NCBI GenBank assembly: GCA_001899315.1
Contig: MOYA01000001.1
Span: forward strand, 1,898,599 to 1,962,598
Length of the DNA: 64,000 bases
Direction of reading: 5' to 3'
Source: Candidatus Obscuribacter phosphatis
GTDB lineage: Bacteria; Cyanobacteriota; Vampirovibrionia; Obscuribacterales; Obscuribacteraceae
In this document: positions 33,637 to 42,135 of the stretch, one piece after another
Layout: each line of letters begins with the position of its first letter
Position numbering within the stretch: position 1 is the first letter of the stretch
The notes under the pieces: model-generated
Database searches by the model: none
What the model was told of the DNA's origin: nothing
Seen by the model: only the letters and a program-made list of their open reading frames with translations
Made by a program: the position numbers and the translations under genes

Positions 33637-34215
33637 ATGGCTCTTTTACCCCCAAAAAACAGTACTCAGGAGTTTGACCAATCGGCCCAAACAGTTCTTG
33701 GCGAGCTGAGAAAAGGCAGTGCGGAAAAGCGTAATGAGTTTGTCTGGGTGCAGCAAGAGAGAGTTTTTGCGGTGGCCCTGCTCGGCACCGGTAGCCAAGA
33801 GAGCGCAGCCCAAGTGACCATCTCGGCTTTCAACAATGCCTTCGCCTCGCTCAATCAAGGCTTGCCAAAAAATGGTGAAATGACTGTTTGGGAGTGGCTC
33901 TCCAAGTTCGTGGTGGAATCTATGTCTGAATACCACAACGAGTTCAGCGGCGCGCCCGAAGAAGATGATGGCGATCCATCACAGGATGGTTCCGCCAACA
34001 TGGATTGGGAGACGACCGTACTACTGGGAGTGCAGCGAGTGAAACGCTGCATCAATCAGTTACCCAATGAACAGAAGCGAGTTTTTCTTCTCAGACACTC
34101 TCTTGACCTTAACTATGACCAGATTGCAGTGGTGACAAACCTTAGAGTTGAAAAGTGCATGGAACTTCTTTATCGAGCCAGAGTGCAGGTTGTTAAATGC
34201 CTCGGGCGGGGTTGA
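33637..34215 (+). CDS. ECF-sigma-like transcription factor
   Basis: 192 aa. Region 2-like part (about 40-105, ESAAQVTISAFNNAFASLNQ and TVWEWLSKFVVESMSEYHNEF) keeps the spacing of ECF region 2 but has lost most usual polymerase-contact residues. An acidic linker (EEDDGDPSQDG) follows, then a good region 4 (about 130-190: QLPNEQKRVFLLRHSLDLNYDQIAVVTNLRVEKC..., a helix-turn-helix). It lies 31 bases upstream of a gene whose N-terminus resembles an anti-sigma domain; sigma/anti-sigma pairs are usually adjacent. It may be a functional divergent ECF sigma or a DNA-binding adaptor. Confidence 0.65.
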   Translation: MALLPPKNSTQEFDQSAQTVLGELRKGSAEKRNEFVWVQQERVFAVALLGTGSQESAAQVTISAFNNAFASLNQGLPKNGEMTVWEWLSKFVVESMSEYHNEFSGAPEEDDGDPSQDGSANMDWETTVLLGVQRVKRCINQLPNEQKRVFLLRHSLDLNYDQIAVVTNLRVEKCMELLYRARVQVVKCLGRG

Positions 34216-34246: not shown

Positions 34247-37200
34247 ATGTCTGACGCACAATTTCGATTATTGATTCAGCGGTCGTTTGATGAAGAACTC
34301 AGCAAACAAGAAAACCGTGCCCTCCTAGACCACTTGGACAGTTCGGAATCGGGTCAGAAATTCCACCATCAACTCGACCAAATGATTCAAGCGGCTCAGG
34401 ATATGCCTCTGCCTGATGAATTAAAGCCCCAGAACCCCGAAGCTCTCGCGAGAATGATCATGGAACAATTACCGCAGAAAAAAGGCAATATATTCGGTTT
34501 CTTGACCGGATTATTCGGAGGAGGGGGCGGCGGCAAGCCTAAGCAAAAAGCCGAGCCGAAAAACGGCAAAAATCAAAAGGATGCCGCCGGTGATGGTGGC
34601 AGACGCGATGGCGGCAAAAAAGACAATGCCAAAGTAGCCAGAGGCAAAGGTGGCTTCAACAAAGGCAAGTCGCAAGATTTTGAAGACGATCAAGATAATG
34701 AAGAACCAGCCGGCAAGATGCCTGGTATCAAGTTCCCTCGCAAAGCAAAAGAACTAGACCAAGAAGAAATTGAGACCCAGGCTGGCGGATTTTCCCGACT
34801 CAAGTCTATGGGCAATCGCTCTCAGGACCAAGACAACCGAGAAGCGCAATCGACCACACGTTCGCTCGGCGAGAAATTCTCAATGCCTTGGGCGGCTCAA
34901 AGCGGCGCTGACGACGGTCCCCTTACCCTAGCCGAATCAATCAAGCGCAAAGTAACCGAATCTCAAAAGCTCTCTCCTATAGATGAGAACGAACTTTCCG
35001 GCAGTCACAGCGATTCTTACCTGAGCGGAGCTTCGGCTGGCAGCCAGGGCGGATTCGCCCCACCATCCCAACAGAATGCTTTTGGTCGCACCGATGCAGG
35101 TTTCGCCCCTTCTTTCGCCCAACCAGGTGCTCAGTCTTCGCAAAGTTCACAGAGTTCACAAATGGGTATGGACCAGCCCACATCGTCTTCAGACGGCTGG
35201 AGCGCACCGGTAGCCATGCCCAACAAACAACCTGTGAAACTGGACATGGGTGGCGGATTCAGCCCCAGCACCGGCGGCGGTGGCGGCAGTGCCATAGGTC
35301 TTAGTCAACCGGCAGCGACTCCTGCGCCTTCAGCTAATGATTGGGGCGGTGCTGCAGGCTGGCAAGGTCAAGCCCAAGCTCCGGCTCAAGCGAAAGAAGA
35401 ACCTAAGACTGATTGGGGCTCCGGTTGGAATGCCCCGACCGACCAAAAACAACCACTTAAGTCATCCGACTCATGGGCCATGCCCGGAGCCGAGGGCGGA
35501 CAATCATGGGAAGCAGCAAGAAGCAGCGCCAGTCACAACGCTCTGCCGGCCCAAGGTCAGGCGAGTGCAGCGCCCAGTGCTGATCCCTGGGGATCTCCAG
35601 GGGGAAGTCCGGGGGGAACTCCGGGGGGCGCTCAGGGAGGCTCAGATAATGCAGCCAACTCTGCAGGCTCAGGCTGGAACAGCCAGCAACCAGCTGCTTC
35701 ACCTCCAGCTTGGAACGCCGCTCCCGCAGCCACTCCAGTATCTAGTTCGATAGGTGCCAACCCGACAAGTTCTGCTTCAGGCTGGGAAACAGCCGCTCCG
35801 GCACCATCTCCGGTCCCAAGTCAGCCGCAAGGACAAGTCGGTCTCGGCAGCTCAGCCGGGTGGGACAGCACTCCCACTCCAGCAGCCGGTGGCTGGGATG
35901 CTCCGTCCACAGCGGCTTCTTCCACAGCGGCTTCGTCACCAGCCTCACCCACTTCGACTAACTCAGGCTGGGATGCTGTACCAGCAGCTCAACCAGCAGC
36001 AAGCACTAATGCTGGCTGGGATGCCTCGCCCGCAGTTTCTGCACCAGCAGCTCAAAACAGCGGCTGGGATGCCAGTCCGGCCCCCGCTGCCAGCGCCAAC
36101 TCCGGTCAAGCCGGCTGGGGTCAAGCCGGTGCCACGCCATCAGGTTGGGGCCAGACTGACAGCTGGACTGCAGCACAACCGGCTTCGGCACCGCAGGCGG
36201 TGCAACCAGTGCCGGCGGCTCCGGCACCGGCTGCCGATCCATGGGCACAGGCCGCACCGGCTCCAGCTCCTGCCCCTGCTAACTCTTGGGCGCAAGCAGC
36301 TCCAGCCAACCCGGCACCGATGGAGCATCAAGCAGCGGCGCCAGCCAACGACCCTTGGGCTGTGTCACCACAGGCGGTGGCGGCTCCAGCTCCACAGACA
36401 GCCCAACCGGCTGGCGGAGGCTGGGCTCAGCAGCCGGCTGAAGCCAAGCAAGCTTCCAAGCGCGCTTGGGCCACTGCCGAACCAGATCTAATTGAGACGG
36501 GTACTTTCCGGGCCTTCACCCCGAGCATGGACAACAGCTTGGGCGCCAAAGCGCCACCTCGTCCCCAGACAGGACAGCAAGCCAATCCCTTTGCCAACAC
36601 TCAAGTAGGCGGCGCACCCTTAAGTAATGCACAAGCTCCTGCGCCGGCTGCTCCCATAGATAACCGCTTTGACGTACCTATATCTGAGCGCATAAAGCAA
36701 CAGGCACCGATACAGCAAGAAGCCCAACAAGCTGCACCTGACAATCGTTTCGATATTCCGATATCGGAACGGATGAAGATGCAACAAGACGGCAGCCAAA
36801 TAAAATCAGTACAGGAAAACAAACCGATAGCCCCTGTACAAAATCAGTCCAATATTCCAGTCAATCAAATTGTAGATAAAATGGGCGAAGTGCTCGCCGG
36901 AGGTCAGGCTCAAGCCAGTCAAGATGCTCGCTGGGAACTGCCGATTGCTGACCGAATGAAGATGCAGCAATCTGGTGCAGACATTGGCGTGCCCGAGCAG
37001 CCGGCTCAACCAGCACAGACAGGCTGGCAAAGTAACGCCCCAGTGGCATCAGGTTGGAATCAACAACCACAAGCCCAGGCGGAAGTGCAGTCAGGATGGG
37101 GCGTCTCGGCCCCCCAAGCCCAGCCTCAAGCCCAGCCAGTCGCAGAAGCTCAATCTCCTTGGGGCAATACCCAAGCTCAATCAGTTGAATCTTCTCCTTG

Positions 37201-38653
37201 GGGCAACACCCAGGCTCCGGCTGCCGTGCAGCCAGTAGCTCAAGCAGCAGAATCATCTCCCTGGGGCAACACCCAGGCTCAGGCGGTCTCGGCTCCTCAA
37301 CCTGTGGCTCCAGCAGTCGAAGCTTCCCCTTGGGGTAACGCTCAGGCTCAGTCAGCGCCATCAGCCTGGAACCAGCCGTCGCCGGCGGCACCACCCGCGA
37401 TGCCGACCGTGGCAGCGCCTGCCGCAGCGGCGCCGAGCGAAATTACAGACAAAGGTAAGGCCGGCGGTCTCTTCAACCTAGACAACAATGCTATAGACAA
37501 AATCTTTGATGGCATAGGTGTCACCGAATCAGTCAGTCAGACTGTGGTGAACTCCGGTGGTCCGAACGAACAGCCTCAAGCCTCGGGATGGGGAAATCAA
37601 AATAATGCACCAGCGGCACCGGCTGCATTTGCCCCGCCCGCAAGTCAGCCGGCAGCGGCATCACCCTGGGCGACGGCAGCACCCGCACCGGCACCGACAC
37701 CAGCTGCCAACATACAGGCACCAGCACCGGTGGCAGCGGCACAAGCGAACCAGTCCAAAGGTCTGTTCCAGCTGGATGATCAGGCAGTTGATCAAATCTT
37801 CGGCAATATAGGCGTAGAAGAGAAATCAGTGCCAATTTCTAAATCACAGGAAATGTCCGCCCCAGTTGGCGGGTTTGCCCAGGCTCCTGCGCAGACAATG
37901 CAACCAGCTCAATCAGGTTGGAATCAGCCAGCTGTGCCAGCAGCCCCCGCTCAAGCCATGCAGGCACAGCCCGCCCAGGGTGGCTGGCCGCAAGCTCAGG
38001 CAACGCCGGGAGGCTGGGCGCAGCCGCCCGCCCAAGGCATGTTCCAAGCCGATGCCAATGTCATGAATAAAGTATTTCCCGAAGCACAGCCTCAGGCACC
38101 GGCTCAGCCTGTGATCCATGAAATCAGACCGGCTCCAAAAATTGAGGGTATCGGTAGATTAGATGCAAGTGCAGACAATTCGCAAGATACTGGTTCGGGA
38201 AGAATCGCTGCCATCGGCAAGTTCTTGCTTGACCAGAAAGACCTGGACAAAATAGGCAAACTAGCCCAGTCGGATATGGCTGAAGGTAAACTGCGGGTGC
38301 TGACAATGGAAGCCTCACAGGACCTGCAGGAATTGCTTGGTCAAATCGGCAAGCAGCAAGGCGTAATCGGCTCTGTGATTGTCGGACACGACGGTCTTCT
38401 CATCGCCAATACAATGCCTTCCGACATGGATGCAGAATCTGTAGGGGTCTGGGCTCTTGGTGTCTACATGAACACCGAGCATGTCACCAAAAAGATGGGA
38501 CATGACCGGGTTCACCAAGTGGTCTCACGCACACCGCGGGGCTATGTGGTCATCGCCGATTTCGGCGGCGGTCTGCTCGTCACCGTCACAGACGGCAACG
38601 AAACAGATCAGTTGATACCGCTCATGCGCACCATCACCCTCTTGGTGAACTAG
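34247..38653 (+). CDS. 1468-aa protein: degenerate anti-sigma-like N-terminus, long disordered middle, Roadblock/LC7 C-terminus
   Basis: Residues 1-75 resemble the helical zinc-finger anti-sigma (ZAS) fold, but the HxxxCxxC end reads DHLDSSESG, so the zinc cysteines are replaced. About 85-1320 is Pro/Ala/Gln/Ser/Gly-rich and disordered, with repeated SGWDA and SPWGNTQAQ units. It contains three copies of a charged motif (NRFDVPISER at 806, NRFDIPISER at 833, ARWELPIADR at 894, each followed by a Met/Ile-Lys) and four of a GLFxLDxxxxDxIFxxIG-type motif (near 1074, 1172, 1265, 1325). Residues about 1344-1468 form a Roadblock/LC7 domain (SVIVGHDGLLIANTMP, RGYVVIADFGGGLLVTVTD), the fold of MglB-type GTPase regulators. 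Probably a signalling scaffold. Confidence 0.75.
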   Translation: MSDAQFRLLIQRSFDEELSKQENRALLDHLDSSESGQKFHHQLDQMIQAAQDMPLPDELKPQNPEALARMIMEQLPQKKGNIFGFLTGLFGGGGGGKPKQKAEPKNGKNQKDAAGDGGRRDGGKKDNAKVARGKGGFNKGKSQDFEDDQDNEEPAGKMPGIKFPRKAKELDQEEIETQAGGFSRLKSMGNRSQDQDNREAQSTTRSLGEKFSMPWAAQSGADDGPLTLAESIKRKVTESQKLSPIDENELSGSHSDSYLSGASAGSQGGFAPPSQQNAFGRTDAGFAPSFAQPGAQSSQSSQSSQMGMDQPTSSSDGWSAPVAMPNKQPVKLDMGGGFSPSTGGGGGSAIGLSQPAATPAPSANDWGGAAGWQGQAQAPAQAKEEPKTDWGSGWNAPTDQKQPLKSSDSWAMPGAEGGQSWEAARSSASHNALPAQGQASAAPSADPWGSPGGSPGGTPGGAQGGSDNAANSAGSGWNSQQPAASPPAWNAAPAATPVSSSIGANPTSSASGWETAAPAPSPVPSQPQGQVGLGSSAGWDSTPTPAAGGWDAPSTAASSTAASSPASPTSTNSGWDAVPAAQPAASTNAGWDASPAVSAPAAQNSGWDASPAPAASANSGQAGWGQAGATPSGWGQTDSWTAAQPASAPQAVQPVPAAPAPAADPWAQAAPAPAPAPANSWAQAAPANPAPMEHQAAAPANDPWAVSPQAVAAPAPQTAQPAGGGWAQQPAEAKQASKRAWATAEPDLIETGTFRAFTPSMDNSLGAKAPPRPQTGQQANPFANTQVGGAPLSNAQAPAPAAPIDNRFDVPISERIKQQAPIQQEAQQAAPDNRFDIPISERMKMQQDGSQIKSVQENKPIAPVQNQSNIPVNQIVDKMGEVLAGGQAQASQDARWELPIADRMKMQQSGADIGVPEQPAQPAQTGWQSNAPVASGWNQQPQAQAEVQSGWGVSAPQAQPQAQPVAEAQSPWGNTQAQSVESSPWGNTQAPAAVQPVAQAAESSPWGNTQAQAVSAPQPVAPAVEASPWGNAQAQSAPSAWNQPSPAAPPAMPTVAAPAAAAPSEITDKGKAGGLFNLDNNAIDKIFDGIGVTESVSQTVVNSGGPNEQPQASGWGNQNNAPAAPAAFAPPASQPAAASPWATAAPAPAPTPAANIQAPAPVAAAQANQSKGLFQLDDQAVDQIFGNIGVEEKSVPISKSQEMSAPVGGFAQAPAQTMQPAQSGWNQPAVPAAPAQAMQAQPAQGGWPQAQATPGGWAQPPAQGMFQADANVMNKVFPEAQPQAPAQPVIHEIRPAPKIEGIGRLDASADNSQDTGSGRIAAIGKFLLDQKDLDKIGKLAQSDMAEGKLRVLTMEASQDLQELLGQIGKQQGVIGSVIVGHDGLLIANTMPSDMDAESVGVWALGVYMNTEHVTKKMGHDRVHQVVSRTPRGYVVIADFGGGLLVTVTDGNETDQLIPLMRTITLLVN

Positions 38654-40221: not shown

Positions 40222-42135
40222 TTAGTTTGTATGGTTGTTGATTACTTTGGTAACAATCTCGTCGACGATAGCGGCATCATAGCCGGCTAGTTGCCTACGA
40301 GAATAAGCAAGATAAGCTTCCATCCAGCGGCGCAGCTCAAGCAGCACGGCTGAGACCGGCACAGCCGCTCGCTTCATCTGGGCAAGGTTGACTGAGATTC
40401 GCCCTTCATGGTCAATGTGAAAGCGCCCTTTTGCCGGCGAGTCACCATGCACATAGTGCAAGCTGGAATTGAGCAAGACTTTATTATCTTCCGGTCCAAC
40501 TAGATTCTGAATCTCCTCTGAAATCTTTTGAAAAATAGTGAGCGGTCTAAAGAGACTGCCTTGCTGAATGTTTGCCAACTTCAGTTGCACAAGCAAATAA
40601 ATCGACTTCATAATCTTGTGAGTGCACCAAGTCTCATACGATTTCAAGACTTCGTCAAGAGTAGAGAGTCCGTCAATATAAGTTGCCAGCTCAGCTATAC
40701 GTTTGCGATCTTCAATTTGCACTGCACTCTCATCAATAAAGGTAAGAGGTGTAGTCTTCATCTGCAGCCAAAGGGCCTCAAAGTTCCAGACCCTCTCCAA
40801 AATTGAGTCACGCCCCTGTGGAAATATGCCAAGAATCTGGTTGATTTGATCTTGAAACAAAGCGGAGTCTAAGAGGAGTCTATCAAGGCTCTGGCTGAGA
40901 CGAGCACTATCATCCAGTTCTAGAGACTTGCCTTTATCTCGAAATACAAAAATTCCTTCGCTCCAAGTGGTGAGAAATTCCACCATGGCATCATAGCCTC
41001 TTAACTTACTGAGGCTGGCATGAGTTGGTTTACCGCCTTCGAAAGCTACAATCAAGGTCTTGTCGCGATTATCAACGGTCAAGAGTCCTGTTTTCTTGGC
41101 CGTAGCCAAAGACTGCAAGAGACCGGCAGTATCTATGGCGCCAAGACTTCCTATCATCGAATCCCGCATGGTCTCGATATTTGCACCGCGCGAGGTATTA
41201 GTATCATCCTCGGTGCGCTTATGATAGCCGCCATAGAGGTACTGATCATCAAGCAAAACTTCCAATTCTCTTGTATTGATAAAGCCGGCTTTAACACACA
41301 TGAGACCCAAGAAGCTACGCTGCGACTTGCCCCAACCTTCTTCTTGCTGTTTCTCTAATAGCTCACGCAACTGGGTCTCAGAAATAATGCCGCAGGCTAC
41401 AAGATAGCGACCAAGGCGAAAAGGCTTGCGATTGTGATAACAGTTAGAGAGAAACTGTATACGAGCAAAAACAGGATAAATCAGCCGAGCCGCTTCGAAT
41501 TCCTGCAAAATGCGCAATGCCTCGTCGGAAGGCAGGTGATAGCGATCTTCCACATTGCGCACTATCGATTCCACCGAAGCGTAGTCGTCAATCATCTGCA
41601 TCACCCAGTTCTGCGGAGCAGCAAGAGAATAATCATTCTTCACCGACTTACCGTAGTCGGAGAGCACGGGCACCGAGGTGGAAAGAATATGATTGGCGAG
41701 CGTGCTGCCGCCGCCGCGTAGGCGCCGCCTATCAATACCAGATACGGTGGCACAGGCATAATCGGCGAGCAATGGATAGCGGGTGAAAATTCCAAATGGG
41801 CTATCGTAAGAGTTAAATGTCAGACCACCGGTGGGCTCATCTCTAGTGAGCGTTATCGCGCCATCGCCTTTAACAAACAAAAGCACTCCTTGAGGCTTGA
41901 GCAGTTTCTTGGCATAGACGGCAAACTTGACCAAAGCATCAAGAGGCAGAGAGAAACCTGTCTGCATCAAATCGATAATCAGTCCGTCCAAGCTTTTGCC
42001 CGACTCTACAAGCTTATCCAGCTGTCCATAAAGATTCTCGCGGTATGAAAAGGTGAGGAAACTCAAAGATGAGTTCAATAGACCATCTTTACTGAATGAC
42101 TGATCTGATAAGGAGCCCCTCTCCCGTTCCGTCAA
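40222..42135 (-). CDS. PATAN/DUF4388 protein with GspE/MshE-like repeats
   Basis: 637 aa, TTG start at 42135. N-terminus (about 1-165) is an unrecognised alpha/beta part (LDGLIIDLMQTGFSLPLDAL). Residues about 175-225 are helical (winged-helix-like: EALRILQEFEAARLIYPV). About 245-305 has two copies of an LGxLLVxxGxIxxxxLxxLLxxQ pattern (FRLGRYLVACGIISETQLRELL and SFLGLMCVKAGFINTRELEVLL), resembling the c-di-GMP-binding N-domain of MshE. About 340-440 is DUF4388 (GSLGAIDTAGLLQSLATA, TGLLTVDNRDKTLIVAFEGGKPTHAS). The C-terminal 200 residues are helical. Probably a signalling protein; c-di-GMP binding is an inference. Confidence 0.75.
   Translation of the reverse strand: MTERERGSLSDQSFSKDGLLNSSLSFLTFSYRENLYGQLDKLVESGKSLDGLIIDLMQTGFSLPLDALVKFAVYAKKLLKPQGVLLFVKGDGAITLTRDEPTGGLTFNSYDSPFGIFTRYPLLADYACATVSGIDRRRLRGGGSTLANHILSTSVPVLSDYGKSVKNDYSLAAPQNWVMQMIDDYASVESIVRNVEDRYHLPSDEALRILQEFEAARLIYPVFARIQFLSNCYHNRKPFRLGRYLVACGIISETQLRELLEKQQEEGWGKSQRSFLGLMCVKAGFINTRELEVLLDDQYLYGGYHKRTEDDTNTSRGANIETMRDSMIGSLGAIDTAGLLQSLATAKKTGLLTVDNRDKTLIVAFEGGKPTHASLSKLRGYDAMVEFLTTWSEGIFVFRDKGKSLELDDSARLSQSLDRLLLDSALFQDQINQILGIFPQGRDSILERVWNFEALWLQMKTTPLTFIDESAVQIEDRKRIAELATYIDGLSTLDEVLKSYETWCTHKIMKSIYLLVQLKLANIQQGSLFRPLTIFQKISEEIQNLVGPEDNKVLLNSSLHYVHGDSPAKGRFHIDHEGRISVNLAQMKRAAVPVSAVLLELRRWMEAYLAYSRRQLAGYDAAIVDEIVTKVINNHTN

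Follow-up and report, generated by a model that had tools for sequence, protein, structure and literature searches.

Recurring motifs in the linker of a giant Roadblock scaffold are possible docking sites that could connect gene regulation with a Ras-like GTPase network

The question raised by this locus is whether short motifs that recur within a low-complexity protein linker are functional sites and, if so, which partners they might bind. The locus lies in a window of 64,000 nucleotides (the whole stretch of DNA analyzed; contig MOYA01000001.1 of assembly GCA_001899315.1, positions 1,898,599 to 1,962,598 of the forward strand) from Candidatus Obscuribacter phosphatis, a nonphotosynthetic cyanobacterium of the order Obscuribacterales with a genome of 5.5 Mb. 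A single gene encodes a giant scaffold protein, and two families of motifs, designated A and B, recur in its linker. The gene and the motif copies are given below in window coordinates, with residues numbered along the scaffold protein.

34247 to 38653, plus strand: scaffold gene, 1468 amino acids (aa), with an anti-sigma-like N-terminus, a long linker rich in A, P, Q, S, G, and W, and a C-terminal Roadblock domain.
36659 to 36700, plus strand: motif A copy 1 (A1), DNRFDVPISERIKQ, residues 805 to 818, core RFDVPISERIK from 807.
36740 to 36781, plus strand: motif A copy 2 (A2), DNRFDIPISERMKM, residues 832 to 845, core RFDIPISERMK from 834.
36923 to 36964, plus strand: motif A copy 3 (A3), DARWELPIADRMKM, residues 893 to 906, core RWELPIADRMK from 895.
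37466 to 37522, plus strand: motif B copy 1 (B1), GLFNLDNNAIDKIFDGIGV, residues 1074 to 1092, assigned by matrix scores and predicted to be helical.
37760 to 37816, plus strand: motif B copy 2 (B2), GLFQLDDQAVDQIFGNIGV, residues 1172 to 1190, assigned by matrix scores and predicted to be helical within a confidently modeled block.
38036 to 38092, plus strand: motif B copy 3 (B3), GMFQADANVMNKVFPEAQP, residues 1264 to 1282, degenerate here and canonical at this position in most relatives.

A preliminary description of the sequence had placed copies of motif A at about residues 806, 833, and 894, and all three were found, each starting one residue higher. It had also listed four copies of motif B. 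GLFNLDNNAIDKIF (1074) and GLFQLDDQAVDQIF (1172) were clear members, GMFQADANVMNKVF (1264) was degenerate, and GKFLLDQKDLDKI (1325) was weakly B-like and is treated below as a separate element. Of the seven copies listed for the two motifs, one therefore lacks support and one is degenerate. In short form, motif A reads R[WF][DE]xPI[QS]ER and motif B reads GLFxLDDxAIDxIFxxxG. Refinement of the consensus gave (D/Q)(N/S)R[WF][DE]xPI[QS]ER(M)K for motif A, and the refined motif B is G[LI]Fx[LVI]DDxx[IMV]D[KRQ][IL]Fxx(N)LG. When the copies were scored with position matrices built over orthologues, using shuffled linkers (n = 620) as the control, the motif A copies of the window protein reached 33 to 44 bits, compared to a maximum of 13 bits in the shuffled linkers, and B1 and B2 reached 45 to 53 bits, compared to a maximum of 5.5. 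A scan for conserved islands that was naive to the motifs recovered B1 and B2 in 19 to 20 of 20 distant orthologues and A1 to A3 in 11 to 14 of them, against a linker background with a mean of 0.3 and a maximum of 4 orthologues. Moreover, three B copies were present in 24 of 31 complete orthologues and two in the remaining seven; truncated contigs are among the sources of the family-wide counts, and one orthologue, L058, is truncated at the C-terminus.

The preliminary description had held that motif columns diverging as fast as the linker would speak against function, and in four of four close pairs of orthologues the motifs evolved more slowly than the flanking linker. Residue changes affected 2 of 99 motif positions versus 141 of 913 linker positions between the window protein and L034 (P = 2e-5), 14 of 125 versus 300 of 1100 between L056 and L057 (P = 2e-5), and 3 of 86 versus 276 of 959 between L045 and L051 (P = 5e-9); the window/L035 pair was weaker (34 of 99 versus 408 of 844; P = 0.005). 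Nonsynonymous divergence (dN), compared codon by codon for motif A, motif B, and the linker, respectively, was 0.022, 0.000, and 0.099 for window/L034, 0.067, 0.050, and 0.205 for L056/L057, and 0.048, 0.007, and 0.208 for L045/L051. Between the window protein and L034, gaps fell in none of the motif columns and in 13% of the linker residues. Since synonymous sites had diverged inside the motifs as well, selection must act on the protein.

These results bear directly on the view that the copies are functionless, being either recent repeat expansions or artefacts of composition. The linker is repetitive, and in L063, which belongs to a second family, six near-identical units of 18 to 19 residues with an A-like motif (PNRFEEPIQAQKQ) form a local tandem expansion at about residues 1120 to 1230. 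However, where residues are identical, the same codon is used at only 2 of 11 positions between A1 and A2 and at 4 of 12 between B1 and B2, and the flanks of the copies are unrelated. The differences at synonymous codons pointed to old repeats that selection has maintained, and together with the unrelated flanks they contradicted recent tandem duplication as the origin of the copies. With slower evolution than the linker and retention across the order also standing against it, we regard this explanation as very improbable, and the rate test and codon comparison already contradict it for A1, A2, B1, and B2.

What, then, might the motifs bind? Three Roadblock proteins are encoded in the genome: the sigma-linked scaffold described here, a stand-alone protein of 132 aa, and a membrane-anchored protein of 989 aa (L072; G000:C1, about 349900 to 352900) in which hydrophobic N-terminal segments and an acidic linker precede a C-terminal Roadblock domain. 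Motif B was found to recur in the last of these, as PLFAGGVDEDIDNIFTTLAP plus three more B-like copies, a result that goes beyond the preliminary description. A matrix built from the sigma-linked scaffold alone gave scores of up to 34 bits in the membrane scaffold versus 4.8 or less in 602 unrelated open reading frames (ORFs). Most orthologues of the membrane scaffold (L174 to L176 and L192 to L204) carry one to six B-like copies, some of exactly the sigma-linked type (TLFQLGDSDVDDIFAGLAG), and a few distant ones hold degenerate B forms only. When 21 genomes were searched with profiles of the two forms of motif B, all matches with E < 0.01 lay inside the two Roadblock-terminal proteins. Motif A was absent from the membrane scaffold and was confined to the sigma-linked scaffold. 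A search of solved structures with motif B returned zero matches, as expected of a 22-residue profile.

Several relatives vary this arrangement. In some genomes (e.g., L205 to L209), two Roadblock domains lie within the reading frame of the membrane scaffold. Shorter paralogues of 442 to 925 aa (L067 to L071) end in a Roadblock domain and have an N-terminus that has diverged; they lack canonical motifs except for one B-like copy in L071 (LFHFDDNAMEEIF), and a search of their loci for a homologue of the sigma gene gave no match. A genome of the same family that is 98% complete (G010) lacks the sigma-linked scaffold and keeps the membrane scaffold (with one B-like copy), a stand-alone Roadblock protein, and MglA. 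Two frames of 657 and 906 aa at L177 encode disordered proteins with a LysM-like terminal domain and a helix similar to the core of motif B (LTDQHMDQIFDRL and ITDERIDQIFEKM) that scores at chance level (E = 0.58).

We tentatively favor, with somewhat less than even confidence, the interpretation that the protein is a multivalent scaffold whose B copies, as acidic helical peptides, dock on Roadblock dimers, with motif A as a further docking peptide. The C-terminal Roadblock domain probably dimerizes, and the linker would present the short motifs. Motif B helices may then dock on Roadblock dimers formed by the scaffold itself or by the membrane-anchored or stand-alone proteins present in the same cell, so that several Roadblock proteins would be held together in a single assembly; motif A would serve a docking role special to the sigma-linked scaffold. 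Of the preliminary description, the conserved islands in an unstructured linker stand as observed, and the docking role that it assigned to them is plausible. The domain on which this interpretation turns is located as follows.

38300 to 38650, plus strand: Roadblock/LC7 fold, residues 1352 to 1468; Pfam Robl_LC7, E = 2.2e-8, above the cut-off; fold match to 9jue_B.

In a Pfam scan of the whole protein, Robl_LC7 was the sole domain found. The modeled Roadblock region (model residues 285 to 401 only, of a model covering residues 1068 to 1468) matched 9jue_B with a Z score of 15.9 and a root mean square deviation of 1.3 over 111 residues. There is precedent for docking of this kind. A Roadblock dimer binds and orders a disordered peptide of the dynein intermediate chain (PMC10886578), and the scaffold Roadblock fold matches 3l9k_A (Z score of 10.9); dynein differs in being a eukaryotic motor subunit with one site per chain and with scaffold and Roadblock as separate proteins. 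In RomR of Myxococcus xanthus, a helix behind a disordered region docks at the dimer interface of the Roadblock protein MglC (PMC12719032). RomR resembles the scaffold family in having a folded N-terminus followed by a long disordered region; in the scaffold, the helices are predicted and may dock on a Roadblock dimer. Unlike the scaffold, with its several short helices within the linker and its terminal Roadblock domain, RomR has a single helix at its C-terminus and itself lacks a Roadblock domain, and its N-terminal receiver domain has no counterpart in the scaffold, where Pfam detects Robl_LC7 alone.

In the model of residues 1068 to 1468, the three B copies formed short helices, and the B2 block had a predicted local distance difference test (pLDDT) value of 83, compared to 36 to 50 for most of the linker. 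When the Roadblock part was left out, the value for the B2 block was 72, a change that hints, and does no more than hint, that one B copy could rest on a single Roadblock domain. Several points weigh against docking on Roadblock dimers. The two pLDDT values come from separate runs with different alignments and are confidence values only, and confidence in B1 and B3 was no higher with the Roadblock domain than without it. B2 and B3 were not significantly more amphipathic than their own shuffles, and the scaffold Roadblock domain, with a net charge of -5, is slightly acidic, which does not favor an acidic ligand. Moreover, if the two scaffolds share a common ancestor that included the linker, the presence of motif B in both would reflect inheritance and be good evidence of function, not of a particular partner.

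The chief alternative lies within the same system, namely, that motif B docks on MglA-type GTPases and adds sites beside the Roadblock contact, as reported for the C-terminal helix of MglB. Two such GTPases are encoded in the genome, one of which matches MglA structures with an E value of 2.5e-70 over 194 residues. MglA occurs in 37 of the 39 genomes from the order and in 0 of 21 genomes from elsewhere in the class, and the Roadblock proteins and scaffolds share this distribution. However, the common distribution counts as a single evolutionary event and does not distinguish MglA from Roadblock as the partner, and the confidence of B2 rose with the Roadblock domain alone. Nor does an mglA gene stand beside the scaffold gene; both lie on other contigs, although the gene for MglB is often no more than four genes away from mglA (PMC4316618). 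MglB is like the scaffold in its Roadblock fold (6hjm_J, Z score of 13.6) and in the presence of MglA-type GTPases in the genome, and it differs in being a small single-domain protein, whereas here the Roadblock domain ends a multipart scaffold of 1468 aa. On balance, we consider docking on MglA unlikely. One of the mglA genes (L212) lies directly behind a PATAN (DUF4388) gene, an association described for other MglA genes (PMC4316618). A PATAN gene is also found near the scaffold (40222 to 42135, minus strand), and the genome contains 19 DUF4388 matches.

It is also conceivable, if rather unlikely, that both motifs dock outside the Roadblock system, each on a different partner, such as a protein of the cytoskeleton, the cell pole, or the envelope to which the two scaffolds would both be anchored. 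Short peptides of scaffold proteins commonly bind third parties, and the confinement of motif A to the sigma-linked scaffold means that motif A, at least, need not involve Roadblock. For motif B, its restriction to Roadblock-terminal proteins in the 21 genomes argues the other way.

The composition of the linker suggests yet another role, in which the motifs act as stickers for self-association of a condensate-forming linker and have no folded partner. The linker is of low complexity. A count over a 1158-residue stretch gave 39 Trp residues, and about 39 lie at 34976 to 37441, 34 of them in a [GPSA]W[GANDSQE] setting and a median of 21 residues apart; this pattern recurs in several scaffold orthologues. 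Exact sequence would be needless for such a role, yet position-specific residues of motif B are kept throughout the order, and orthologue L054, which has only 7 Trp residues, retains motif B. We therefore judge the sticker explanation quite improbable.

The A and B families are not the sole conserved islands of the linker. PKIEGIGRLD (residues 1294 to 1306) is a further one, and four more features were delimited. PKIEGIGRLD and the first three features below also emerged from the scan that was naive to the motifs, and the preliminary description had listed none of them.

34832 to 34885, plus strand: conserved island DNREAQSTTRSLGEKFSM (REAQSTTRSLGEKF; SLGEKF), residues 196 to 213, in 13 to 14 of 20 orthologues.
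34901 to 34975, plus strand: conserved island PLTLAESIKRKV (PLTLAESIKRK), residues 219 to 243, in 20 of 20 orthologues.
36488 to 36526, plus strand: conserved island ETGTFRAF, residues 748 to 760, in 10 to 14 of 20 orthologues.
38159 to 38272, plus strand: pre-Roadblock element of the SADNSQDTGSGRIAAIGKFLLDQKDLDKIGKLAQS type (GRIAAIGKFLLDQKDLDKIGKL), residues about 1305 to 1342, kept in 20 of 20 orthologues and not a B motif by score.

The last of these contains the position 1325 that had been put forward as a fourth copy of motif B, an assignment that is unproven. On a matrix made from B1 to B3 only, B1 and B2 scored 45 to 49 bits, and the 1325 element scored about -0.3 bits (-17.5 to 4.7 in orthologues), a value in the tail of the distribution for unrelated ORFs (99.99% quantile of -1.6 over 228,549 residues). 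An iterated orthologue matrix does absorb the element; this is circular and hence lends no support to a fourth copy. In the structural model, the pre-Roadblock element is the start of a predicted helix that runs into the Roadblock domain (model positions 263 to 301).

At the other end of the protein, the scaffold is tied to transcription by its N-terminus and by its neighbor, which encodes an extracytoplasmic function (ECF)-type sigma factor.

33637 to 34215, plus strand: ECF-type sigma factor gene, 192 aa, with sigma-70 region 4, directly upstream of the scaffold gene; Pfam Sigma70_r4_2, E = 2.8e-10, and NCBIfam sigma models.
34247 to 34486, plus strand: zinc-type (HxxxCxxC) anti-sigma-like domain, residues 1 to 80, with the zinc cysteines lost (HLDSSESG).

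A homologue of the sigma gene adjoins the scaffold gene in the window and in 33 of 33 orthologous loci compared. The first 80 or so residues of the scaffold are conserved in 37 of 60 relatives, every one of them inside the order. HxxxCxxC, the signature of zinc anti-sigma (ZAS) factors (PMC2877774), occurs at the N-terminus of 25 of 32 family members examined, and the zf-HC2 profile matches a zinc-bearing relative over its whole length with a score just below the cut-off. In the window protein, a check of the sequence showed HLDSSESG in place of HxxxCxxC. The family is thus of the ZAS type, and its member in the window does not bind zinc. Loss of the zinc cysteines spans the window's genus and relatives L036 to L038, and L050 has lost part of the motif. 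The family resembles the ZAS factors RsrA, ChrR, and RslA both in this signature and in the position of the gene directly behind that of an ECF sigma factor (PMC2877774), whereas ZAS factors are short proteins that lack the long linker and Roadblock domain and have not shed their cysteines as this genus has. This zinc anti-sigma-like N-terminus behind an ECF sigma gene had not been recognized in the preliminary description, and a literature search for a fusion of Roadblock and anti-sigma domains gave nothing relevant.

Motif A was considered as a binding site for the sigma factor, and this is not supported, since L043, L052, L054, L058, and L061 keep the sigma gene without clear A copies. Among the candidate partners first proposed (a GTPase, the sigma factor, and the Roadblock domain), the evidence points to Roadblock or MglA for motif B and offers none for the sigma factor. 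The N-terminus itself may be an anti-sigma-like domain that acts on the ECF sigma factor encoded just upstream, and docking of motif B on Roadblock dimers, as we favor, would place this domain under MglA/Roadblock control. In its fullest form, motif B would join the membrane and anti-sigma scaffolds in an MglA-controlled assembly in which a Ras-like GTPase sets the activity of the ECF sigma factor, replacing the zinc input in genera without the cysteines; we put this proposal forward as a speculative one that is probably not correct in full.

The recurrence of motif B in a second Roadblock protein, and only there, suggests that the motifs are docking sites through which gene control may be coupled to a Ras-like GTPase network. 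Bacterial Roadblock/MglA systems are familiar chiefly from motility and polarity. If the interpretation is true, a family of giant scaffolds joining anti-sigma and Roadblock domains would link small-GTPase signaling to transcription, and it would stand as a clear example, in bacteria, of docking through motifs within a long disordered linker, which is better known from eukaryotes.

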